The notes beneath the pieces were generated by a model, which saw only the letters and a list, made by a program, of their open reading frames with translations, was not told where the DNA came from and did not search any database. A program made the translations under genes and the position numbers. From Vicingaceae bacterium (GTDB lineage: Bacteria > Bacteroidota > Bacteroidia > Flavobacteriales_E > Vicingaceae), in NCBI GenBank assembly GCA_026003395.1, contig BPHE01000020.1, forward strand, positions 1 to 37,511: a DNA stretch of 37,511 nucleotides. Reading direction: 5' to 3'. Below are positions 1-35,305 of the stretch, one piece after another (the first letter of the stretch is position 1; each line of letters starts with the position of its first letter).

Positions 1-1066
1 CGGTCTCGGTTATTACCATATTGATGGCTGCCGACCGGCCACGACGCGTTTTTTTGTGGTAATTGTCCAAAAGATTTTGATCGTTGGTATAGGCATGTAC
101 GGTTTCTATATGTCCTTTTTCAATTCCGAAGAAATCGTTGATTACTTTTAATACCGGAACAATGGCATTGGTTGTACATGAAGCAGCAGAAAAAATTTTT
201 TCTTTTTCAATATCCAATGATTTGTGGTTTACACCGTATACAATATTGGGTACTTCTTTACCCGGAGCAGTTAATATAACCTTTTCTATTCCTTTGGCTT
301 GTAAGTGACGTGAAAGTGCATTGCGATCCTTGAATACTCCCGTATTGTCAATTAACAAAGCATCATGAATGCCATAATCTTCATAATTGATATCTTCAGG
401 ATTGTTGGCAGCAATCATATGTACAATTTGCCCGTTAATAATCAGGCATTTATTCTCAAGATCAATGTCCACCTGTCCTTTGAATGGTCCGTGTACCGAA
501 TCCATTCTTAACAAAGCAGCACGTTTGCAAATTTCTTCATCAGAGTTGCCGCGGGTAACAATGGCTCTCAATCTTAATTGCTGGCCTTTTCCTGCTTGTT
601 TTATCAGTTCACGAGCGCAAATACGCCCAATTCTTCCAAAGCCAAACAAAACAACGTCTTTGGGAGTAAGCTTAAAATCAACGTTCCCGATAAAATTTTT
701 CAATTTATTTTCTAAAAACTCTTTTTTAGATGCATAATTATTTTTTTCCTCCATCCATTCAGCGGCAAGCTTCCCTATGTCTATTTTTGATGGGGCTAAA
801 TCAAGCGCACACATGGATTTTGCCAACTCGGCAGTATCAAAAATGGAAATAGGTTTTTTCACCACTTCGGCAGCATATTTATGAAGATTGAGTACCTCCG
901 AAACACTTTGATCCACAAGATGATTTCTAAATAAAACCAATTCTACCGATTTGGTATAAAGTAATGAACCGATGGCATTGATTAGTTCAACAGCAGCTTG
1001 TTCTTTGCTGACCCAATCAGCCAATGTTTTGTCGAAAGAAACCGCCGATTTAAGTTCTGTTGCCAT
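1..1066 (-). CDS. gap: Glyceraldehyde-3-phosphate dehydrogenase, 5' part (C-terminus outside window)
   Basis: Oxidises and phosphorylates glyceraldehyde-3-phosphate with NAD(P)+ in glycolysis, in the cytoplasm. I translated the minus strand by hand from ATG at 1066; it stays open to the window edge (355 codons). A Rossmann start, LFGFGRIGR, lies after an N-terminal extension of roughly 130 residues. The catalytic motif SCTTNA has Cys at residue 297 (codon 178-176), and the conserved VHAYTNDQ follows it. Classic GAPDH is about 335 aa with the Cys near 150, so this is the long form (about 480 aa expected) found in Bacteroidota. The C-terminal catalytic part lies beyond position 1. It is divergent to queD, with a shared palindromic promoter candidate at 1085-1103. 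The family call is firm. The cofactor and preferred direction (glycolytic or gluconeogenic) cannot be read from the sequence. Confidence 0.93.
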   Translation of the reverse strand, partial: MATELKSAVSFDKTLADWVSKEQAAVELINAIGSLLYTKSVELVLFRNHLVDQSVSEVLNLHKYAAEVVKKPISIFDTAELAKSMCALDLAPSKIDIGKLAAEWMEEKNNYASKKEFLENKLKNFIGNVDFKLTPKDVVLFGFGRIGRICARELIKQAGKGQQLRLRAIVTRGNSDEEICKRAALLRMDSVHGPFKGQVDIDLENKCLIINGQIVHMIAANNPEDINYEDYGIHDALLIDNTGVFKDRNALSRHLQAKGIEKVILTAPGKEVPNIVYGVNHKSLDIEKEKIFSAASCTTNAIVPVLKVINDFFGIEKGHIETVHAYTNDQNLLDNYHKKTRRGRSAAINMVITET

Positions 1067-1084
1067 AATTTAAGTTTTAATTGT

Positions 1085-1103
1085 TAATTTTGCGGCAAAA
1101 TTA
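1085..1103. promoter_or_regulatory. Perfect palindrome carrying two opposed -7-like boxes between gap and queD
   Basis: The 19-bp sequence TAATTTTGCGGCAAAATTA is a perfect 9-1-9 inverted repeat. Each arm reads TAATTTTG, a match to the Bacteroidota -7 element TAnnTTTG. One box points right towards queD (ATG 1149), the other left towards gap (ATG 1066). No -33 TTTG sits at the ideal 17-20 bp: the nearest candidates are 22 bp away on the plus strand and about 15 bp on the minus strand. The promoter reading is an inference. The symmetry could equally be an operator. Confidence 0.4.
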
Positions 1104-1148
1104 TACATTCTTCAAAATCAACCATAATAATATTTTTAAAAATCTGAC

Positions 1149-1505
1149 ATGGAATTGTTTATAGAAACTTCTTTCGATGCGGCTCATTTTCTTCCTTATG
1201 TACAAGAAAACCACAAATGTCGGAGATTGCACGGACATACTTATATTTTGACCGTGTATGTCGAGGGACCATTGGATGATCGCATGGGATGGGTGATAGA
1301 TTTTGCCGAACTGAAAGAAAAGGTAAAAAGTGTCGTGAAGCGTTTGGACCATTATTTATTAAATGACATACCAGGTCTTGAAAATCCCACAGCAGAAAAG
1401 CTGTCGGTGTGGATATGGGAACAATTAAAACCCGAAGTGCCAATGTTAAAAAAAATCATTTTAAAAGAAACTCCAACCTCCGGGGTTGTATATACAGGTA
1501 GGTAA
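1149..1505 (+). CDS. queD: 6-carboxy-5,6,7,8-tetrahydropterin synthase (QueD/PTPS family)
   Basis: Converts 7,8-dihydroneopterin triphosphate to 6-carboxytetrahydropterin, an early step to queuosine and other 7-deazapurines, in the cytoplasm. The 118-aa length is typical of QueD. The zinc ligands are visible as His13 (AAHFL) and His28/His30 (LHGHTY), with Cys24 as the catalytic thiol in HKCRRLHGH. Further conserved pieces are the mid-protein LDHYLLND and a C-terminal LKET containing the substrate-binding Glu. ATG 1149 is the first start after the divergent promoter region. prfC follows after 2 bp, so the two are probably co-transcribed. The other queuosine genes (queC, queE, queF) are not in the window. 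A eukaryote-like PTPS role is less likely given the CxxxHGH spacing. Confidence 0.93.
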
Positions 1506-1507
1506 TT

Positions 1508-3109
1508 ATGAATACAAAAGAAATCAACAGACGACGCACTTTTGCCATCATCAGTCATCCTGATGCAGGTAAAACAACATTGACGGAAAAATTGTTGCTT
1601 TTTGGAGGGGCCATTCAAACAGCAGGTGCTGTTAAATCAAACAAAATAAAAAAAACAGCTACTTCGGATTTCATGGAAATTGAAAAACAGAGGGGAATAT
1701 CTGTTTCTACTTCTGTTATGTCTTTTGAATACGGAGGTTTAAAGATTAACATATTGGATACACCCGGTCACAAAGATTTTGCCGAAGACACATACCGTAC
1801 CTTGACAGCCGTTGACAGTGTAATATTGGTAGTGGATGCCGCAAATGGTGTTGAAGAACAAACGTATAACCTGATGCAGGTGTGCCGCATGCGCAATACT
1901 CCGGTATTGATTTTTATCAATAAAATGGATCGCGAAGGCAAAGACCCCTTTGATTTACTTGATGAATTGGAGAATAAGCTGTCTGTTCGCGTAAGACCGA
2001 TGACTTGGCCTATTGGCATTGGTTCTACATTCAAAGGTGTTTATAATATCTACAGAAATGAATTGTTGCTTTACAAGCCCAATAAAACCAAAATAGAAGA
2101 TGATGTCACAAGAATAGAAAATTTGGATGATCCCAAGCTCTTGAATTTTATCTCGGAAAAAGAAAGAGATTTGTTGAAAGAAGAGGTGGAAATGATCAAT
2201 GGAGTATATGACCCTTTTTCAAGAGAAGATTATTTGGCCGGGAAAACTGCTCCGGTTTATTTTGGAAGTGCTTTGTATAGCTTTGGTGTTCAGGAATTGT
2301 TAAATTCCTTTATAGAATTTTCTCCATCACCTCAAGGAAGGCAAACAAATGTAAGGTTTGTAAATCCGGAAGAGCCTGCTTTCACCGGATTTGTTTTTAA
2401 GATACATGCCAATTTAGACCCAAAACATAGAGATAGAATTGCATTTGTCAGAATAGTATCAGGAAAATTTGAAAGAAATAAATTTTATCACCACGTAAGA
2501 TTGGAAAAAAACTTACGCTTTGCCAATCCTACTTCATTTATGGCATCTGATAAAACCGTGGTGGATGAGGCCTGGCCGGGTGATGTGGTGGGTTTGTTTG
2601 ATACAGGTAATTTTAAAATTGGCGATACTCTCACAGAAGGTGAAAAAATAATGTTTCAAGGCATACCTTCTTTTTCACCCGAAATTTTCAAAGAGTTGAT
2701 CAATATGGATCCGATGAAAACAAAACAACTGGAAAAAGGAATTGAGCAGTTGACAGATGAGGGCGTTGCACAGTTGTTTAAAATGCAGCCGGGAAGTCGT
2801 AAAATTATAGGAACAGTGGGAGAATTGCAGTTTGAAGTAATAAAATATCGTTTGGAGCATGAATATGGCGCCAAATGTGAATTTAAACCTTTGCCACTTT
2901 ACAAGGCCTGTTGGATTGTTGCAGAAAGTCCACATGTGTTACAAGAATTTCTTAATCGCAAACATGGCTACATTGCTTATGATAAAGACGATAACCCTGT
3001 CTATCTGGCAGAATCATCCTGGATGTTGGAAACCGCTCAAAGAGATTTCCCGGACATTCAATTTCATTTCACTTCTGAATTTAAATTGAAAACCGGCTCG
3101 ATAGCTTGA
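1508..3109 (+). CDS. prfC: Peptide chain release factor 3 (RF3)
   Basis: GTPase that recycles RF1/RF2 from the ribosome after termination and takes part in post-peptidyl-transfer quality control. It is a 533-aa translational GTPase. The order is G1 [12 protein letters not shown] near residue 16, switch [11 protein letters not shown]4 NKMDRE, then the RF3 central and C-terminal domains. RF3 is distinguished from EF-G by its N-terminus ([16 protein letters not shown]) and by [16 protein letters not shown] 1508 begins 2 bp after the queD stop. Its stop TGA (3107-3109) overlaps the TTG start proposed for the next gene, suggesting translational coupling. The reading frame is intact. Confidence 0.96.
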
Positions 3110-3951
3110 AAAATATTAACTATCAAATATTTAAATCTTTATTTAAACTTTTGGCATCTTTGCCTTTACCTGTTTTATATGGCATCTCGGACTTCATGTA
3201 TTTTGTATTGTTTTATTTAATAAAATACCGAAGACAGGTAGTTAGAAAAAACCTAATTAGCTGTTTTCCAGAGAAATCATTGAAAGAAATTGAACAAATA
3301 GAAAAAAAATATTACAAGCATCTTTCAGATCTGATAGTGGAAAGCTTGAAATCGTTTAAAATTTCAAAAACACAACTCAAAAATAGGATTAAATTTAATA
3401 ATCCTGATTTTTTCAGAGATATTTTAAAGCAATATTCGAGAGTTATTGTTGTAATGGGGCATACGGGAAATTGGGAGTGGGCCGGTTTATTGATGGGCCT
3501 GAGCTCGCCGGCCAAACATTTTACAGTTTACCGTCCTATTAAAAATTCACTTTTTGACCGTTTGATGTATGATATGCGATCATCAACCGGAACAATCCCT
3601 GTACCAATGCAAATGATCGGACGTTATTACCTGGAAACTCAAGAACCTTCCGTATTTACTTTCATAGCTGATCAAAATCCCCCAAAAGAAAGTGCTTCGT
3701 GGCATAATTTCTTTGGAAAAGAAACGGCTTTCTTCCGTGGTTATGAAAAACTGGCCCTTAAAAAATCTGCTGCGGTGGTTTTTGTTTATATTTGTAAAAT
3801 TAAACGAGGGAATTATGAAATCTTTTGTGAAAAATTACCTCCAAATAAATCATATTCCGGATCTTTTGCCGAGTTGTTGGAAAAAAGTATACGGCGTCAA
3901 CCATACAATTGGTTATGGTCTCATAAGCGTTGGAAATATACTCGCAATTAG
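3106..3951 (+). CDS. LpxL/HtrB-type lipid A acyltransferase family protein
   Basis: Likely transfers an acyl chain to lipid A precursor or a related lipid at the inner membrane. The 281-aa length matches the family (280-310). An N-terminal hydrophobic segment (about residues 12-38) would anchor it. The catalytic HX4E motif is visible as GHTGNWEW with His119 and Glu124. The C-terminus ends in the family's [10 protein letters not shown]. Start: TTG 3106 overlaps the prfC stop as TTGA, the only sensible start given that the signal-anchor begins at once. In Bacteroidota these genes are often annotated only as lysophospholipid or lauroyl acyltransferase. The exact acceptor cannot be told. The 3' end is overlapped by the next gene's possible start. 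Confidence 0.85.
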
Positions 3952-6775
3952 CTTATTTCTAACAGGAGTATTTTTTTCTGTAAAAATTCATTCGCAATCA
4001 TTCAACGGGATAGCACAACAAAATTATGCGGGAGTGACCGGCGTTTGGTTGCAACCGGCCTCTATAGTCGATTCAAGATTTAAATTTGACATGCAACTTG
4101 CCGGTTTTTCTACAATGATGTATAACAATTGGCTGCTTTTAAGTCAAAAAGCTATTCGTCCATTGAAAATGAGTCACTGGGACACCACTTTTACCGATCC
4201 TGATTTTCAGAAAAAATATGTGAAAACCCCGCCATTGAATAAACCTTATTCTTTTATTTTTAATACAGAAGTTTATCTACCATCCTTTATGGTTAACCTT
4301 GGTAATAAATCTGCTTTTGCATTAAATGCTAGAGTAAGAACATATACTAACATAGATGGAATTGAACCGCATTTGGCAAGATTGATTTATGAAGGTTTTG
4401 AATACCCTCCCCATTGGAATCAGGAAGTAGTAAATGAGACCCCAATTCAAGTGCAATCTACGACCTGGGCGGAATATGGTCTAACCTATTCGCGGGTTGT
4501 CATGGACAAAGAAAAACATTTTTTAAAAGCAGGGGCGACCTTAAAACTTCTACAAGGGCTTCAATCTTTTTATATTTACATCGATGACTTCCATTATAAA
4601 TTTATCAATCAAGATACGATGGATATATTTAAAACGGATGTTTATTACGGACATTCAAATAATTTTACATTTGATAACTCATCGGTACAATATAAATTTA
4701 TCGCATACCCTACAATAGGAGGGGACCTTGGGATTGTGTATGAATTTCGACCAAAATGGCAAGATTATAAATATAACATGGATGGAGAAACAAATCTCTG
4801 GAGAAAAGACAAAGATAAATATAAATTACGTGTGGGTCTGTCGCTTTTAGATATTGGACGTTTAAGATATAAGAAAGGATATTATTCAGGAAATTTTCAT
4901 TCTGACATAAAAGATTGGTACATAGGAGGTTTGGCGTTTTCTAATGTTAATGATTTAGATGATACGTTAAGAAACAGGTTTACCTATATTCAGGATGAGG
5001 GATTTTATTTGATGCAGTTGCCTACTGCTTTAAGTATGCAAATTGATTACAATGTGTGGAAAAGTTTATATGTAAATGCTACACCATTTTATGCTTTTGC
5101 CCGAAAAAAAGACAAAGAAAAAATAAAGGAATTAACGCGGTTGACAGGTTCTATCAGATGGGACAGACGTTGGTATGGAGTGTCAATTCCTTTTACTTAT
5201 GACGAATATAATAAAACACACGTGGGTTTAGCTTTACGTTTGGGAGTGCTGATGTTAGGAACAACCAATCTGACTCCTATTGTTACCTCTCAGGATATTA
5301 ACGGAGGTGATTTTTATTTTGCTTTAAAAATTCCCGTATTTCAAGGTCATCCGCGCGACAGGGATAAAGATGAAGTTTCTGATAAGAAAGACCAATGTGT
5401 GGATACACCCGGTAAATGGATCTTTCTTGGTTGTCCTGATACTGATGGCGATATGATTGAAGATCGTCTTGACAAATGTCCATTGGTGGCCGGATTGCCT
5501 GAGTTTGAAGGATGTCCGGATAGCGATAATGACGGTATTCAGGATTTAGAAGACGAATGCCCTGAAATACCAGGAATAAAAGATTTTAACGGATGTCCCG
5601 ATACTGACGGAGATTATATACCGGATAAATTGGACAGTTGCCCGGAAATTCCGGGATTAAAAGAGTTTAATGGATGTCCTCCCCCCGCACCAAAAGTTGA
5701 ATATAATTCTTTGAAGTTTATTGTAGAATTTTGCGGCTATCCTAAAAGTAACATTTTAATTTCTTTGTGGGATAATGATAACCGTTTGATTCAAAAAACC
5801 ATATCGGATCAGAACGGAATGTTTCATTTTGACTCATTGGTTACCGGCAAAACATATAAAATTAAAATTGATACCGGGGATTATCTAATTCCACGAAAAC
5901 TTTCTGTGTATATAGCAAATGAACAAGATCAACGAATCATTAAACTATCAAAGGTTGATTATAATGCATTTAGCATGATAACTCCGGGCAAAGAAAGCTT
6001 GCAGACATGGCCGGTAATCGAACCTGCACCTGTTAAAACATACAATGAAAATTCATTGCTTTCAATTCCACTTTACGGTCAAATATACAGAAAAGATCCC
6101 GGTGATTTTAATCAACCTTACGAAATAGAAATTTATGATGCAGATGGATGTTTTATTAAAAAAACAAAGTCGGTGCAACTTGGTAAGTTTAATTTTGAAA
6201 AATTACCTCCCGACAGCAAATATTTCATCAATTTGTTGTCTGTCAATGATAGTGATTTAGTTATATTGATTACCGATGAGAATGGCAAACCAATTGATAA
6301 ACCAAGAAAAATACGAAAATTTCTCTTTGAATATTTCAGATTGCCACCGGATAAAGGATTTATAACATTACTTGACGAAAATGACGAAATTTTGAGAATA
6401 AAAGAAAATGACAAATTTGTTCTGGGTAAAATATATTATGAATACAAAAAATGGGACATTACACCTGAAGCTGCTGAAGAACTTAAGAAACTGGCCAAAA
6501 TTTTGGTAAAAAATCCCCATATCAAAGTAGAATTAGGTTCTCATACCGACTCCCGTGGAAGCGATAAATACAATTTAGAACTTTCTGAGAAACGCGCACA
6601 ATCGGCCAAAGATTTTCTACTTTCATTAGGGGTGAATCCTGATCAGATTGAAAGTAAAGGATATGGTGAAACCCAACCTGTCAATGAGTGTGTCAATGAT
6701 GTTCCATGTTCTGAAGAACAACATGCCAAAAATCGTAGAACTGAGGTGAGAATCATAACTAAACAACAGGAATAA
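3815..6775 (+). CDS. OmpA-family outer-membrane protein with TSP3 repeats (start uncertain)
   Basis: Large envelope protein that probably links the outer membrane to peptidoglycan. From ATG 3815 it is 986 aa. A hydrophobic signal segment ([14 protein letters not shown], ending near IHSQS at about residue 62) is followed by a long beta-rich region resembling the DUF5723 outer-membrane domain. Next, at about residues 512-622, come four or five thrombospondin type 3 calcium repeats (DxDxDxxxD...CP). Carboxypeptidase-regulatory-like segments follow, and then a C-terminal OmpA peptidoglycan-binding domain (about 876-986, [12 protein letters not shown]...NRRTEVRI). The start is odd. There is no ATG, GTG or TTG between 3869 and the signal peptide core. 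ATG 3815 has a purine-rich GAGGG just upstream but overlaps the acyltransferase by 137 bp. TTG 3866 and non-canonical ATT 3947 (at the acyltransferase stop) are alternatives. It ends TAATG with the next gene. Confidence 0.88.
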
Positions 6776-20538: not shown

Positions 20539-20960
20539 ACTTATGTATACAGTATTGTTTTAGTTGATTAGGGCGTAAATTTAAACATGGAGTTGTTAGG
20601 AGATACTATAATTTGAAAAAATTTTTTGTTTTAACTGAGGATATTTGGAATGAACTTGAAATGCAATACTTACCAAATGATTAAACGGAAATATTAATTT
20701 TTTTCATTGTCATTCGGGCTAATTTAAGTTCATAAATTCATACCGAGCTTATTTGTTAGATAGATTTTATACCTTTTTTATTTATTTCGTAAGATTCAAT
20801 TTTAACACCAATATGGTATTTTTCCAAAAAATCATGCATCGCTTTATACTATTTTTTCCATCTCTATATCAAAAGAATTATTATGATAATTGTTAATAAA
20901 AATTCAAGTTGAAAAAAATAATGCAATTCAAATCAAGTACCTTTGCCAAAAATTTCTTTT
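20539..20960. other. AT-rich divergent intergenic region
   Basis: About 420 bp between divergent rlmD and transketolase genes. It is strongly AT-rich with no ORF having a recognisable product. It ends with a -7 candidate at 20938-20945. I saw no strong hairpin, tRNA or riboswitch-like conserved core. Confidence 0.5.
20938..20945 (+). promoter_or_regulatory. Candidate -7 element for the transketolase operon
   Basis: TACCTTTG is an exact TAnnTTTG match 15 bp before ATG 20961. It overlaps TTG 20943, which argues that ATG 20961 is the true start. No properly spaced -33 TTTG is evident. Confidence 0.4.
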
Positions 20961-21811
20961 ATGGCATCTATCGATGAATTAAAACTAATCTGTAATCAAG
21001 TCAGAAGAGATATTTTACGAATGGTGCATGGAGCTGCTTCCGGGCATCCGGGTGGGTCGTTAGGATGTGTAGAATATTTCGTTGCACTTTATTTTGAAAT
21101 CATGAAACATGATCCCGAGTCATTTTACTATGGTAGGGAAGAAACGAAGATGTTTTTTTTCTCTCCAACGGACACATTTCTCCCGTTTGGTACAGTGTTT
21201 TGGCCCGTAGCGGATATTTTGACATGAAAGAACTGGCTACGTTCAGAAAAATTAATTCAAGACTTCAAGGACATCCGGCTACCAAAGAAGGGCTGCCCGG
21301 CATCAGAATGGCAAGCGGTTCGCTTGGACAGGGTTTGTCAGTAGCGTGTGGTGCTGCTCTTGCCAAAAAATTGGACCAAGATCCCCGATGGGTATTTTCC
21401 TTGCATGGTGATGGTGAATTACAAGAAGGACAAATTTGGGAAGCCGCTATGTTTGCTGCTCATCATAAAATTGACAATTTAATCGCCACAGTCGACTATA
21501 ACAATAAACAGATTGATGGCGACGTTGATAAAGTGATGAGTTTGGGTGATTTGAAAGCTAAATGGGAAAGTTTTGGCTGGATTGTGTTGGATGAACCAAA
21601 TGGCAATGATTTGGTTTCGGTTATTCAGACACTAAACCGGGCTAAACAACTATCCGGCCGGCAACGTCCTGTGGTGATATTGTTGCATACTATCATGGGA
21701 AAAGGCGTTGATTTTATGGAGAATGATCATCATTGGCATGGCGTGGCTCCAAATGATGAACAATTGGCAAGGGCTTTGCAGCAAATACCGGAAACTTTGG
21801 GTGATTACTAA
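20961..21811 (+). pseudogene. Transketolase, N-terminal (TPP-binding) half, frameshifted at a T8 tract
   Basis: Subunit of split transketolase in the non-oxidative pentose phosphate pathway. The first frame reads MASIDELKLICNQVRRDILRM with GAASGHPGGSLG, up to KMFFF at the T8 run 21153-21160. From there the family sequence LSNGHISPVWYSVLARSGYF continues in another frame, with the TPP motif GDGELQEGQ...DYNNKQ intact. Removing two T's (MFFLSNGH, as in homologues I recall) or adding one (MFFFLSNGH) restores about 282 aa. The stop overlaps the next start as TAATG. A run of eight T's is prone to transcriptional slippage and to sequencing miscounts, so this may be functional. The short upstream TTG start at 20943 is less likely. 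Confidence 0.88.
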
Positions 21812-28782: not shown

Positions 28783-30454
28783 TTAAAAAACATGATTTTT
28801 TATAAAGTCGGCCACTCTGAATGAGTTGGCATAAATGGTCCAGGTAAAAGTGACGCTTCCTCCGGTTGGCATAAAACTTCCGTCTGTAACAAATAAATTA
28901 TCAACATCATGAGCCCTGCAAAATTTATCTAATACCGAGGTTTTGGGGTCGTTTCCAAATCTACAACCTCCGGCTTGAAGGTTGGTGGGAGGTGTACTTC
29001 CGGTATTGGAAGAAATATGTTTTGCCCCCATGGTTTTCAAAATTTTTTCACATTTTTCGGCCAAAAATTTACCTACTTTTAAATCGTGCGGATGAGAGTT
29101 TATTCTCACTCTGGCCACCGGGTCGCCCCATTTGTCTTTTACGGACGGGTCGAGAGTCACATAGCAATTATCGGTCGGCAGCCAATCCAAAAAAATTTCG
29201 AAACGTAATTTTTCTTGTGTTTTTAAAATATTTTTCCAATTTGCGTTTTAATGCGGTGCCGTAGACCAATTGATTGTTTTGCCATTTTTGTCTAATGGCT
29301 TTGCCAATCCCTACGGCATGTTCAAATAAAAAATGGGCTGTGCCGCCTTTGATCCGTTTGCCGTTTTCATCTTCAAACTCATAAAATTCATTGAGCGAAC
29401 GGTTGATAAACAAGCCGGGGGTTTTAAGTGCTTCTGCATCCACAGGGTTTAATTCGTCATAGTAAAAATAACCTTCTCCGGTTCCTCCTGCCGAGAAAAT
29501 CAAGTTTTTTCCCACCAGACCATGGTTATTTGCCACTCCGTAAGGAAACTCTTTATTTTTGCTCATCAATAAAAGCCTTGATGTTTCAATGGCTTGACAT
29601 GCAACCACAAATATTTTTGCTTCAATGGATTGTTTTTGATCGTCTGCATCATAATACCATGCCTTTTTGATCTTAAAACTTCCGTTTGTTTCAAGATGAA
29701 AAACTTTGGCATTGGGTATAATGGTGCAATTACCTGTTTTTAAAGCATCGTGAATAAGTGCCGCTCTTGAACTACCTTTGGCGCCCGACGAGCAGCCATA
29801 ACTTCCACAATAATTAGAATAATAACAAGCATTTCTTTCATTTTTTGGTTGCGAAAGGATACAACGAGGCAAGGGAATGACCTCCCATCCCAACTGTTTG
29901 GCTGCTTGATCAATCCATTGGGCAGCAATATTTTCTTGAAGAGGAGGGTAGGGGAAATCTGCCGTAGAACGGGGCTCCAAAAATTTATGTTTTACAACCT
30001 TCCCGGATATTCCAACCACCTGTTCCACTTTTGTGTAGTATGGTTCCAGATCATTGTATGTAATTGGCCAATCAACTATATTGGCGTCTTCAATGGGGCC
30101 ATATTCAGAAAGTAAACGGAAATCTTTGGGTTTCATTCTTTCAAAATAACCACTCATAAAATTTGACGATCCGCCTACACAATTGCCATTCCAAAAACTA
30201 AACCCCGTATCATAGGTATTTTCTGCTATCCATTCATTTTCATCTTCATCAAAGGTTTCAATCACATGCCTTTCATCCTTTAAATTAGGCGAATACATAT
30301 CCCTGCGGGATACTCCAAACTCATCTTTGCTGAAATCGCGTGTTCTATACCAGGGGCCTTTCTCGAGCACCACTACTTTAAATCCGGCTTTTGACAGTTC
30401 ATAAATAACCGGACCGGCACCGGCGCCGCTTCCTATTACGCAAACATCATACAT
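28783..30454 (-). pseudogene. GMC-family flavoprotein dehydrogenase, one frameshift
   Basis: FAD-dependent dehydrogenase of the glucose-methanol-choline family, probably oxidising a sugar or alcohol and passing electrons to a quinone or cytochrome. The N-terminal piece (30454-29168) opens with the FAD-binding CVIGSGAGAGPVIYELSKAG, then GNCVGGSSNFMSG. It shifts frame near 29209-29224 and continues (to 28783) through FLDWLPTDNCYVTLDP, THSGSC-like NTGSTPPTNLQAGGCRFG and the C-terminal DGSFMPTGGSVTFTWTIYANSFRVADFI. Removing one A of the coding-strand A5 (plus T5 29209-29213) gives KNTRKLRFEIFLDWLP and 556 aa. Its ATG abuts the stop of the small subunit with no gap. A His in the GMC active-site region is not obvious. 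The substrate is unknown. Confidence 0.85.
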
Positions 30455-31076
30455 TTACTTGTCATTTAATTGGTCAAATGACGTAATCATTATTTTTTCC
30501 TTTTTCCTTTTTTCCATCAAAACCGGATAAGCATTATCTGCTGAGGGTTGGGGATAACCGGGTGTGTATTCCAACCATTTCCAACCGGTTTCGCCGGGAT
30601 TGCATCCGTAAATGGGGTTTGCCAACAGGGATTCGAATATTAAGCTCAACATGGACGAGGCCCAGGATTCGCCGCCTTCTTCAACAAATTTTTTAAAAAC
30701 TTCCAATTTGAGTTCGTCATCCAGATGATAAAAGTTTTTATTTTCTTGTCTTTTTGAAAAATCGTTTAATCTGTCGGCTCCTTTGATCAAAAATGAATTT
30801 TCCTCCGGATCCCTGTGTCGATCATTTAAAACATTCAAAAGAAACGGAAAAGATTCTATGGCCATTGATCCGGGTGAGGAAGGTTCGTCCGGAAACAAAA
30901 TTTGTTGTGCCCAAATGATATTGGCTTTTTGGGCAAATGTGAGAGGGTGATATTTTGCAAATTTTTGAATGTATTGTTCAACCTCGCTTTTTTCCCATCC
31001 GCAACTGATTAATTGGGGAATTTGGCAGTAAACTGCCGTCAATGCCACTGTTTTTAATAAAATCTCTTCTATTCAC
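30455..31076 (-). CDS. Gluconate 2-dehydrogenase subunit 3-like protein, Tat signal split by a frameshift
   Basis: Small partner subunit of GMC dehydrogenases. The main frame (to GTG 31048) gives 197 aa with the family region (about residues 35-170; QQILFPDEPSSPGS, ELKLEVFKKFVEEGGESW, GWKWLEYTPGYPQPS). Upstream, GTG 31076 in another frame starts a twin-arginine motif NRRDFIK. If one T is removed from plus-strand T5 (31051-31055; A5 in the coding strand), the two join as NRRDFIKTVALTAVYCQIPQL, a normal Tat signal and 206 aa. As sequenced, the main frame would lack the twin arginines. It is followed immediately by the GMC gene. This is the second broken gene of the pair. Confidence 0.82.
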
Positions 31077-31206: not shown

Positions 31207-31237
31207 TTTGTAATCTGATAAAAATGTTATACATTTG
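31207..31237 (+). promoter_or_regulatory. Promoter of the KCGEG lipoprotein gene
   Basis: TTTG at 31207-31210, a 19-bp spacer, and TACATTTG at 31230-31237 match the Bacteroidota consensus (TTTG and TAnnTTTG) without mismatch. The predicted transcript start leaves about 25 nt before ATG 31268. It is the best promoter match in the window. Confidence 0.6.
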
Positions 31238-31267: not shown

Positions 31268-31546
31268 ATGAATGTAAAACAATTATTGGCATTATTAATG
31301 ATTGCTACAGCCTTTACGTTTGCATCTTGCAGCAATTCGGGAGAAGAAAACTCAAATGCCGAAAATACAGAAGCTGTGGAACAAAGCGATGATACCGAAC
31401 ACGCATCGGCCGAAGAAAGCAAATGTGGAGAAGGTAAATGCGAGGAAGGCAAATGCGAGGAAGGCAAATGTGGAGAAGGTAAGTGTGGGGAAGCCAAAAA
31501 AGATTCGGCAAAATGTGGAGAAGGTAAATGTGGAGAAGGAAAATAA
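31268..31546 (+). CDS. Small lipoprotein with KCGEG pentad repeats (HvfA-like Cys motif)
   Basis: A 92-aa protein. Residues 1-20 are a signal peptide ending in lipobox FASC (Cys21). Residues 22-51 are an acidic Ser/Asn/Glu linker. Residues 52-92 are pentads K-C-(G/E)-E-G: seven with Cys (53, 58, 63, 68, 73, 83, 88) and one degenerate pentad KKDSA at 77-81. The EGKCGEGKCG signature is the same as in HvfA-type oxazolone/thioamide metallophore precursors, which are copper-protective RiPPs modified by a DUF692 (MNIO) enzyme and a DUF2063 partner. Neither gene is in the window, and HvfA normally carries a Sec signal rather than a lipobox. The minimum supported reading is a membrane-anchored thiol-rich protein, possibly metal-binding. 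It has its own promoter and terminator. Confidence 0.85.
   Translation: MNVKQLLALLMIATAFTFASCSNSGEENSNAENTEAVEQSDDTEHASAEESKCGEGKCEEGKCEEGKCGEGKCGEAKKDSAKCGEGKCGEGK
31421..31543 (+). repeat. 15-bp tandem repeat array encoding KCxEG pentads
   Basis: Eight 15-bp units of the form AAATGTGGAGAAGGT or AAATGCGAGGAAGGC run in phase with the reading frame, with the sixth degenerate. Unit length is always 15 bp, so copy-number change would stay in frame. The near-identity of neighbouring units suggests recent duplication by slippage. Confidence 0.85.
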
Positions 31547-31566: not shown

Positions 31567-31591
31567 AAGGCCGGTTTATCCGGCCTTTTTT
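31567..31591 (+). terminator. Rho-independent terminator of the KCGEG lipoprotein gene
   Basis: Stem AAGGCCGG (31567-31574) and CCGGCCTT (31580-31587) with loop TTTAT, followed by a run of six T's ending at 31591. It begins 21 bp after the lipoprotein stop. The next gene's ATG (31600) is only 8 bp beyond the T run. Confidence 0.9.
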
Positions 31592-32604: not shown

Positions 32605-33312
32605 TTACAAAAAATCTTCGACAAAACGTTTGTCTTGTTGAATACTTACAGGCGTGTGTGGTATTATTTCACCTTCGTTGAAAAACAATATTTTATCGCA
32701 ATAGCGGAGCATAAAATGTATTTCGTGTGTTGAAATAAAAATTAAGCAATTATTTTGTTTTACGTTATGGCATAAAACTTCAAACAGGTCTTTTTTGGCC
32801 GGTGGGTCCAGAAAGTTGGTTGGCTCGTCAAGCAGCAAAAGTTTCACTTCTTGTATCATGGCGCGGGCTATCTTAACTTTTTGATATTGCCCATCACTCA
32901 GTTCAAACATATACTTGTTTGTCAAATCGGTCAATTGCAACTGTTTGATATAATGTTCGATAATCAATTGATCTTTTTTAGTCAATAATCCCAGCATATT
33001 CAAATAAGGTAAACGGCCAAGCGACAAATATTCCATGACTTTCATGGGAAAAAACAAATGTTCCCTTGCACTGATAAAATTTATGAGGTGGCTGCGGTCT
33101 TTGGGTGGCATGTCGTGAATGTTTGTTTCTTTCCAATAAACTTGCCCTTGTTTGGGCCGAATCCAACCGCTGACAGTTTTCAAAAAAGTGCTTTTGCCGC
33201 TTCCATTCCGGCCGGTTAAGGCAATTAATTGCGGCGCTTCAAAATGACCATCGAATGGCTTGTGCAACCCTTCTTTATATCCACAAACGATATTTTGTAA
33301 TTTTAAGGTCAC
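32605..33312 (-). CDS. ABC transporter ATP-binding protein (BtuD/FecE type)
   Basis: Cytoplasmic ATPase of an iron-chelate/B12-type importer, 235 aa. Walker A GRNGSGKST (residues 34-42), Q-loop in LINFISAREHLF, signature LSDGQ (in MFELSDGQYQKVKIAR), Walker B LLLLDEP and the H-loop ISTHE are all visible. The signature is LSDGQ rather than LSGGQ, a common tolerated variant. It overlaps the permease by 4 bp and is last in the operon. A helper role for heme, siderophore or cobalamin cannot be separated by sequence alone. Confidence 0.93.
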   Translation of the reverse strand: MTLKLQNIVCGYKEGLHKPFDGHFEAPQLIALTGRNGSGKSTFLKTVSGWIRPKQGQVYWKETNIHDMPPKDRSHLINFISAREHLFFPMKVMEYLSLGRLPYLNMLGLLTKKDQLIIEHYIKQLQLTDLTNKYMFELSDGQYQKVKIARAMIQEVKLLLLDEPTNFLDPPAKKDLFEVLCHNVKQNNCLIFISTHEIHFMLRYCDKILFFNEGEIIPHTPVSIQQDKRFVEDFL

Positions 33313-34265
33313 AAATAATTTTTTTTACTGATTACCAGCCAGAGAATAAATGGTCCGGCGATGATGGACAAAAAAATGTTTAATGGAATCACAATGCCGT
33401 TAATTAAATGGTGGGAGAGGAAGTCGGTCAACAACAATGTGAAAATTCCCATAAATGCAGATGCGGGAATTAAAATGAGGTGGTGAGCGGTTTTGTGAAT
33501 CATTCGGGCAAGGTGAGGCATAGCCATTCCTACAAATGCCACAGGTCCGAAATATGCCATAGACAACCCGGTGAGAATAGAAGAAACAAGAATGAAAAAA
33601 TAACCCAGACGTTTCACATGAACACCTGAAAAAAAAGCAAAAACTTCGCCTGCCGAGTAAGCGTTTATGGATTTAGATTGAAGCAATACAATAATGGCTA
33701 TTGAGACGATGCATGGTAAGATATACATGGACGTTTCCGGAGAGGTATTGTCAAAACTACCCATGTTCCAAATAATAAAGGACTTTAATTGTTCAGGTAG
33801 GGCAAATATTTCAATCAAAGCAGTGATGCCAGAAATAACCGAACCTAAGAAAATTCCGGCCAGCAATAAAGTAGTATTTTGATGAATGAACCGATGAAGG
33901 AATAGAAGAATCAATAAAACAGCCATACTGCCCGTAATGGCGGCAAATGGTACCGACCAAACGGGCAATGAGAGTGCATACGTGAAATTTATCAGCATGG
34001 CCACGGCTACGCCAAAACCTGCTCCACTGCCCAGGCCAAGGACATACGGTCCGGCCAATGGATTTCTGAAATAAATCTGCAGCAACATTCCACTAAGGGG
34101 TAATGCTATGCCACAACTGACGGCATTGATTAAACGGGGTAAACGAAAATATTTAAATACAAATGGGTCAATGGGATAATTGCCGGTATAAATGATGGCT
34201 ATTCCGCCTGAAATACACAGTAGCAACCACAAAATCAGCAAATAGATATCTTTTTTTTCTATCAT
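33309..34265 (-). CDS. ABC transporter permease, FecCD family
   Basis: Inner-membrane permease, 318 aa, with about nine hydrophobic segments spread along its length. Family motifs are the N-terminal RLPRLINAVSCGIALPLSGMLLQ (the RLPR...GAxLxxsG type) followed by RNPLAGPYVLGLGSGAGFG, and the later FVGMAMPHLARM coupling helix that docks the ATPase. It overlaps the binding protein gene upstream by 1 bp and the ATPase downstream by 4 bp, indicating translational coupling and stoichiometric expression. It may transport cobalamin, heme or ferric siderophore. Dimeric use of one permease gene (as in BtuC) is expected. Confidence 0.93.
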   Translation of the reverse strand: MIEKKDIYLLILWLLLCISGGIAIIYTGNYPIDPFVFKYFRLPRLINAVSCGIALPLSGMLLQIYFRNPLAGPYVLGLGSGAGFGVAVAMLINFTYALSLPVWSVPFAAITGSMAVLLILLFLHRFIHQNTTLLLAGIFLGSVISGITALIEIFALPEQLKSFIIWNMGSFDNTSPETSMYILPCIVSIAIIVLLQSKSINAYSAGEVFAFFSGVHVKRLGYFFILVSSILTGLSMAYFGPVAFVGMAMPHLARMIHKTAHHLILIPASAFMGIFTLLLTDFLSHHLINGIVIPLNIFLSIIAGPFILWLVISKKNYL

Positions 34266-35305
34266 TATTCTTCGGGCAAACGCTTGTAAAAATACAAGTT
34301 ATCTTCATTTCCTTGATGAAATATAATGTATAAATCCATCAACCAACGGTCGGGATATAATATGCCCGACTCGAAAATATCGTTTGCAGGCCCCTTTTTT
34401 CGTTTTATATAGTTGTATACACGCTTGTTGCGAAATGCTTTAATTTCATTACAAATCTCGAGTTCATTGAGCATGGAAATCATCGTTTCTTTTTCATTGA
34501 CATTTATCCAAACATCGGCCTCTCGAGCATGCAGGTAAATCCATTCTTTGCTTACGGGTAACGTGCCGGAGGGTGACTCGCCCGGAGAAATGCAAATTCC
34601 CCCGGCATCATGGATGATTTTTGCTATTTTAGAATCAGTCGATGGCAAGTACCATTGACCTCGGTAGGGAAAACCACACAAAACTTTCAGGGTATCTTTT
34701 GAATGTATGTTTCGACGAATGGAATCATATCGTTGTTTGATTGCGTCAAAAATTTTTTGTGAAAGTGAATATTGGTTTGCCCAATAACCAAAAAAATTAA
34801 TCCAAGCGGATTGTTGCAAACAGGTAGGTTCCATATAATCCGACAATGGAACTACCTGAATTCCGGATTTTTGTATTTTTTTTACCGTTTCCGATTGATT
34901 GTAATCATGAAGTGTTGTGATCCAGAAAGTTGGATTTAATTTCAAAATATATTCAGGATTTATATTTTCACGAAAGGGGATCAAAGTTATCTTGCCTTGA
35001 CGGATCAAAAATTTCACTTTTTCATTGAATAGGTATGTGGAATCTGTGACATAATTCAATGATGACAAGAGATTCAAGGCGTCGAAGTAGATGGTGGCAT
35101 AGGCGGCTTCTATGGCAATATTTTGAAAATGCCCGGGTTTTAGCTTTATGTTAGATTTTGTCAGTAAAATTTCCTTGCGCACAGAATCAATGGAAAATCC
35201 TTCGGGATCATTTACCGGGTTTTTCTTTTCGCCAGGTTGATGGCAGGATGAAAAAGAAAATAAAATCAAAATGCCCATCAACAATGCATAAAAATGATAT
35301 TTCAT
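34265..35305 (-). CDS. Periplasmic substrate-binding lipoprotein, BtuF/FecB-like
   Basis: Type III (helical backbone) binding protein delivering substrate to the permease, 346 aa. It has a lipoprotein signal with lipobox SFSSC (Cys21). The two-lobe pattern is visible: LKLNPTFWITTLHDYNQSETVKKIQKSGIQVVPLSDYMEP in the first lobe, and PYRGQWYLPSTDSKIAKIIHDAGG then ADVWINVNE in the second. It is the first gene of the three-gene importer. A TonB-dependent receptor is absent from the window. The nature of the ligand is unknown; cobalamin would fit the organism's B12-dependent mutase (10849) but there is no direct evidence. Confidence 0.9.
   Translation of the reverse strand: MKYHFYALLMGILILFSFSSCHQPGEKKNPVNDPEGFSIDSVRKEILLTKSNIKLKPGHFQNIAIEAAYATIYFDALNLLSSLNYVTDSTYLFNEKVKFLIRQGKITLIPFRENINPEYILKLNPTFWITTLHDYNQSETVKKIQKSGIQVVPLSDYMEPTCLQQSAWINFFGYWANQYSLSQKIFDAIKQRYDSIRRNIHSKDTLKVLCGFPYRGQWYLPSTDSKIAKIIHDAGGICISPGESPSGTLPVSKEWIYLHAREADVWINVNEKETMISMLNELEICNEIKAFRNKRVYNYIKRKKGPANDIFESGILYPDRWLMDLYIIFHQGNEDNLYFYKRLPEE

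Follow-up and report, generated by a model that had tools for sequence, protein, structure and literature searches.

We have identified, in a Vicingaceae bacterium, a small lipoprotein built on a repeated KCGEG pentad, which we tentatively interpret as an MNIO-free, unmodified, membrane-tethered thiolate metal buffer whose function is tied to that of an exported FAD/3Fe-4S dehydrogenase. The components of this interpretation differ in strength, with independence from MNIO being highly probable, a functional link to the dehydrogenase likely and metal binding probable to a slightly lesser degree. The lack of modifying enzymes in the genome and the recurrence of dehydrogenase neighbours in several unrelated bacteria together make an unmodified thiol metal buffer the most likely explanation. 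The window, by which we mean the whole 37,511-nucleotide stretch that was analysed, corresponds to contig C20 of a genome of 2.54 Mb and 97.7% completeness. Its positions 1-5977 recur without a mismatch at the right end of another contig of this genome, C4; the two contigs thus overlap by 5,977 bases and probably adjoin. The neighbouring dehydrogenase genes, overlooked in an earlier note made from the sequence of the window, are the most informative part of the region (Table 1).

Translation of the open reading frame gives MNVKQLLALLMIATAFTFAS/CSNSGEENSNAENTEAVEQSDDTEHASAEES-KCGEG-KCEEG-KCEEG-KCGEG-KCGEA-KKDSA-KCGEG-KCGEG-K, where the slash marks the lipobox, and bears out the earlier description of seven Cys-containing pentads behind an acidic linker and a lipobox. 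As judged by eye, a hydrophobic signal precedes a lipobox (FAS before Cys) whose cysteine, residue 21, is invariant in an alignment of eight lipoproteins, and the mature protein is predicted to reside at a membrane. Five consecutive pentads are followed by a five-residue spacer and two more, and cysteine accounts for 8.7% of the residues, whereas in 17 other genes from the window its overall share is 1.1%. Shuffling the residues of the mature protein 200,000 times never produced more than two pentads. Codon pairs that differ among the pentads were synonymous in 31 cases and nonsynonymous in 16, whereas only about 19% of possible single changes are synonymous, an excess indicating that the repeat is maintained at the protein level. 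AlphaFold2 modelling with eight homologues predicted a signal helix only (mean pLDDT 48.9) and no beta-helix. The gene appears to be monocistronic. A strong promoter of its own had been proposed, and a match to the Bacteroidota-type pattern does lie just upstream, but the window contains three such TTTG-N19-TANNTTTG-type matches where 2.8 are expected; as matches are no commoner than chance, a strong promoter is plausible at most.

Table 1. Coordinates of the KCGEG lipoprotein gene, its sequence elements and the adjacent dehydrogenase genes in the window
Feature	Position	Strand	Evidence or remark
KCGEG lipoprotein gene	31268..31546	+	ATG start, 92 aa; ORF and NCBIfam NF050137, 35.2 bits (cut-off 19.5)
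Lipoprotein signal peptide, lipobox ...FAS/C	31268..31327	+	Sequence, judged by eye
Flexible, acidic linker (residues 22-51) following the lipidated Cys	31331..31420	+	Sequence; AlphaFold2 mean pLDDT <50 there
Seven KC[G/E]E[G/A] pentads, residues 52-91	31421..31540	+	Sequence, codon comparison, shuffles
Bacteroidota-type promoter match TTTG-N19-TANNTTTG	31207..31237	+	Pattern match just upstream of the KCGEG gene
Intrinsic terminator-like hairpin with T tail	31567..31587	+	Sequence
Gluconate_2-dh3 subunit gene, divergent from the KCGEG gene	30455..31048	-	PF13618, 27.8 bits (cut-off 23.4)
GMC oxidoreductase gene, FAD glucose/fructose dehydrogenase type	28783..30454	-	PF00732, E 2.4e-12; two ORFs, 29168-30454 and 28783-29190

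A Pfam search of the lipoprotein found no family above cut-off, and a tblastn search of plasmids with the lipoprotein as query gave no match. The likeness to HvfA that had been claimed, together with a suggestion of a profile search, held for the repeat: the NCBI KCGExKCG_twice domain model NF050137 matches above its cut-off, but the full-length HvfA model NF050188 reached only 52.2 bits, below its cut-off of 95. As in the HvfA and oxazolin (Buf_EGKCG) RiPP precursors, whose cysteines become Cu(I)-binding 5-thiooxazoles, an export signal is followed by repeated (E)GKCGEGKCG units. Unlike those precursors, the lipoprotein has contiguous pentads in place of 17-residue repeats, is neighboured by dehydrogenase genes instead of genes for MNIO, DUF2063 and DoxX, is encoded in a genome without MNIO and DUF2063, and does not carry the leader-like motif considered below. 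The DAG-RiPPs of Bacteroidota (lipidated ChrA/DybA-type MNIO products) share the lipobox and a Cys-containing C-terminal part, but have a CPxCGxG ending and an adjacent MNIO gene (PMC12636315). Orphan and lipoprotein members of the KCGEG family are already known: 67 of 2583 genomes bearing EGKCG precursors have no MNIO, and it was suggested that such precursors may work unmodified or be non-functional (PMC12452194), while lipoprotein signals occur on a subset of MNIO-linked oxazolins (PMC12636315). The oxazolone/thioamide chemistry cited in the earlier note has itself been superseded, being now reassigned to 5-thiooxazole (PMC13419390).

DUF692 and DUF2063 genes had been reported as absent from the window, which was confirmed, and the genome-wide search that had been proposed for them was also negative: neither MNIO (DUF692, PF05114) nor DUF2063 (PF09836) had any match in the whole genome, while control genomes gave matches. 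No MNIO was present anywhere in the five Bacteroidota lipoprotein genomes searched whole (our own, G006, G062 and those of loci L061 and L077) or in the whole genome of the Lysobacterales lipoprotein L074; for G609, G712 and G683 the search covered the locus. The Lysobacterales protein (L074, 338-925), from this MNIO-free genome, is a 195-residue lipoprotein consisting almost entirely of KCG/KC repeats. Filing the Vicingaceae protein as an HvfA-type RiPP was ruled out, as MNIO, DUF2063 and the leader-like motif are all missing. The related idea that it is a precursor whose modifying MNIO has a gene that escaped sequencing draws on the match of the repeat to HvfA models, on a paralogue located beside an ECF sigma/anti-sigma pair and on the 2.3% of the genome that may be missing, a gap in which an MNIO gene could in principle sit. 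We consider this very unlikely given that none of the six lipoprotein genomes searched whole encodes an MNIO, that DUF2063 is lacking as well and that the leader-like motif is missing. Modification of the cysteines by an enzyme of another family is, if anything, less probable again, for the conserved neighbours are the dehydrogenase and its small subunit and no further conserved enzyme gene is adjacent. The reading of the protein as a modified metallophore was therefore not upheld; two of the options offered with it, an unmodified metal buffer and a new lipoprotein version of the family, survive, whereas the third, that it is modified by an enzyme with a gene elsewhere, is unlikely.

KCGEG genes are rare, being found in 2/46 genomes of the order (our own and G006), 21/395 of the class and 5/395 in a draw from the phylum. 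We tabulated 35 such genes from Bacteroidota, 21 adjacent to MNIO and 14, our own included, without MNIO nearby, and assigned lipoprotein status by eye from the N-termini. The MNIO-adjacent group contained no lipoproteins and the MNIO-less group nine, mostly with an acidic linker, so that MNIO was at the locus for 0/9 lipoproteins against 21/26 non-lipoproteins (Fisher p 3e-5, with loci partly related). A leader-like motif, [LM]G[STN][GA][AGS][EQD][LVI]R (LGSGxELR-like), just after the signal peptide was present in 20/21 MNIO-linked genes and in 0/14 MNIO-less genes, including our lipoprotein (Fisher 6e-9, with some genomes closely related); because of this relatedness both Fisher values overstate independence. 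The trend was weaker among KCGEG sequences from outside Bacteroidota, where a different motif (GY/GF) occurred in 37/45 with MNIO in the locus versus 3/9 in MNIO-free genomes. Gammaproteobacterial KCGEG proteins from MNIO-free genomes of Colwelliaceae and relatives (L058, L082, L089, L127 and L128) have no GY/GF motif. The leader-like motif and the presence of MNIO together separate likely modified precursors from unmodified proteins. As far as literature searches show, there is no earlier description of the consistently MNIO-free lipoprotein class, of the difference in motif between the two groups or of the association with the dehydrogenase.

The paralogue mentioned above is a second KCGEG gene of this genome; it lies on contig C7, from base 65761 on, and its signal is not of the lipoprotein type. 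Behind it come a gene for an ECF sigma factor and one for a small protein resembling an anti-sigma factor, both similar to the sigma and anti-sigma genes found in MNIO clusters (33% and 29% identical to those of G095). Its location beside a sigma pair in an MNIO-free genome demonstrates that a sigma-linked KCGEG unit exists without MNIO, and this unit (L033, 7762-9141) could be a sign of a lost MNIO system. The idea that the lipoprotein is a non-functional relic of such a system draws on the second copies: the matching gene of G006, on its contig C4, is frameshifted near the end, and the open frame of our C7 copy starts with a TTG located beyond an ATG in another frame. The lipoprotein gene itself, by contrast, is intact, the differences among its pentads are mostly synonymous and KCGEG genes persist in the dehydrogenase neighbourhood in six genomes, which leaves a relic highly doubtful.

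The GMC protein encoded beside the lipoprotein matches 6a2u, the catalytic subunit of a bacterial FAD glucose dehydrogenase (E 2e-51), and it also matches fructose dehydrogenase. Its two blocks are 62-75% identical to single-ORF homologues of 561 residues, while the Gluconate_2-dh3 subunit is 52% identical to a G006 gene in the equivalent place. Immediately 5' of the Gluconate_2-dh3 ORF, in an A5 run (31048-31076), the reading frame apparently shifts, which cuts the ORF off from a Tat-like NRRDFIK start. Apparent frameshifts affect the GMC gene (28783-30454), the Gluconate_2-dh3 start and also a gene for a transketolase N-terminal part (20943-21811), and look like the product of an indel-prone assembly or damaged genes. 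Three cysteines of the GMC protein align with those of 6a2u and, on this alignment, would bind a 3Fe-4S cluster; the exact motif C-[YF]-Y-S-x2-C-G-S-x-G-C (C-x5-C-x4-C) is present in 5/6 GMC copies, that of G683 being unmatched by the exact pattern.

The pair of a Gluconate_2-dh3 and a GMC gene adjoins KCGEG genes in six Bacteroidota genomes (that of the window, G006, L061, G609, G712 and G683). G006 has the same divergent arrangement as the window; L061 has the lipoprotein, small subunit and GMC genes in that order on one strand; the lipoprotein gene is convergent with the pair in G609 and G712; and in G683 the KCGEG gene encodes a non-lipoprotein and lies ahead of the pair in the same orientation. 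G683 also encodes two KCGEG lipoproteins, one with additional Lys/Cys-rich repeats and, behind it, another small secreted protein rich in Cys (L185, 6208-7254), the other adjoining a large protein that by eye resembles an FAD/Fe-S lactate or glycolate dehydrogenase (L184, 6848-10286). Within the 46 genomes of the order, a Gluconate_2-dh3 gene was found only in our genome and G006, the two with the KCGEG lipoprotein, and no GMC gene was found at any of the 21 MNIO-linked KCGEG loci. When plasmids were searched from the GMC side, the best match was to a Sulfurospirillum plasmid (56% identity), where a divergent gene beside the GMC pair encodes a 73-residue secreted KCG-repeat protein annotated only as hypothetical. 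Genes for the KCG-repeat protein, Gluconate_2-dh3-like and GMC proteins, MsrP, a ferric-reductase-like protein (msrP/msrQ-like) and a two-component system lie side by side on this plasmid (NZ_CP118374.1; L186, 1818-7653). A distant GMC match in Mesorhizobium (33%) belongs to a pair with no evident KCG gene. Our literature searches, whose coverage was incomplete, found no report of an association of GMC with KCGEG genes, and the text of the MNIO landscape paper contains no mention of GMC, gluconate or dehydrogenase. The nearby FecCD, periplasmic-binding and ABC genes (32605-35305) might have supplied a partner in metal import, but this idea was dropped because a GH16 gene intervenes and G006 does not share the arrangement.

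The coupling to the dehydrogenase is not universal, as four lipoprotein versions (G062, L077 and two in G683) and our C7 paralogue are not beside GMC genes. Together with the simple, acidic and flexible composition of the protein, the location of several lipoprotein versions elsewhere would fit a general thiol/redox buffer or acidic surface lipoprotein, whose cysteines do not serve metals and whose adjacency to the dehydrogenase is non-functional. Set against this are the recurrence of the GMC/Gluconate_2-dh3 neighbourhood across families and in a second phylum and the conservation of the KCGEG spacing, and we judge it unlikely.

A different role is suggested by comparison with solved FAD glucose/fructose dehydrogenases, in whose family electrons pass from FAD through a 3Fe-4S cluster to a haem-c subunit (PMC9727119). 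The neighbour genes share with these complexes a catalytic subunit with the three aligned cysteines and a small Tat-type subunit, but a KCGEG gene is present and a multihaem cytochrome c subunit gene is absent nearby: no CxxCH was found in ORFs of at least 60 residues at seven KCG/GMC loci. The lipoprotein might then be a membrane-anchored third component, acting in place of the haem-c subunit as a docking or electron-transfer (metal-thiolate) partner, and in L061 and L181 the KCGEG gene leads what looks like an operon of three genes. There is, we think, a small chance of this, since the chain is of low complexity and predicted to be unstructured, the length of the array is highly variable and in two genomes the gene is convergent with the pair. 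Moreover, a missing haem subunit is not unusual: the gluconate dehydrogenase of Campylobacter jejuni (Cj0414/Cj0415), which we liken to the neighbour pair by its description, is said to oxidise gluconate in the periplasm with two components and to hand its electrons to a soluble periplasmic cytochrome c (PMC4178425). A bolder version, to which we give slightly less credence still, holds that exported FAD/3Fe-4S dehydrogenases form a widespread family in which KCGEG lipoproteins are the third component, with an unmodified metal-thiolate tail replacing the haem-c subunit as electron acceptor, or as donor or guardian of the Fe-S cluster, and with MNIO-modified oxazolins having evolved from or beside it.

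Under the favoured interpretation of an unmodified metal buffer, the lipoprotein would be exported, lipidated on Cys21 and tethered to a membrane, so that some 30 flexible acidic residues followed by seven Lys-Cys-(Gly/Glu)-Glu-Gly units are held outside the cytoplasm. The thiols are expected to stay free because searches of the genome yielded neither an MNIO nor a partner protein, and in this unmodified state they may buffer soft metals as thiolates, most likely Cu(I) and possibly Zn or Fe. The protein would work with the divergently encoded, Tat-exported FAD/3Fe-4S dehydrogenase (GMC and Gluconate_2-dh3), probably protecting it or keeping it metallated.

These findings bear on the annotation of the family, as the NCBI domain model would label the protein an 'oxazolone/thioamide-modified RiPP metallophore', yet our searches of the genome revealed no enzyme that would make one. 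A role of KCGEG arrays that does not depend on the modification is suggested by their repeated association with an enzyme of the glucose/fructose-dehydrogenase type, and this association provides a testable partner for orphan KCGEG proteins in Bacteroidota and possibly Campylobacterota.
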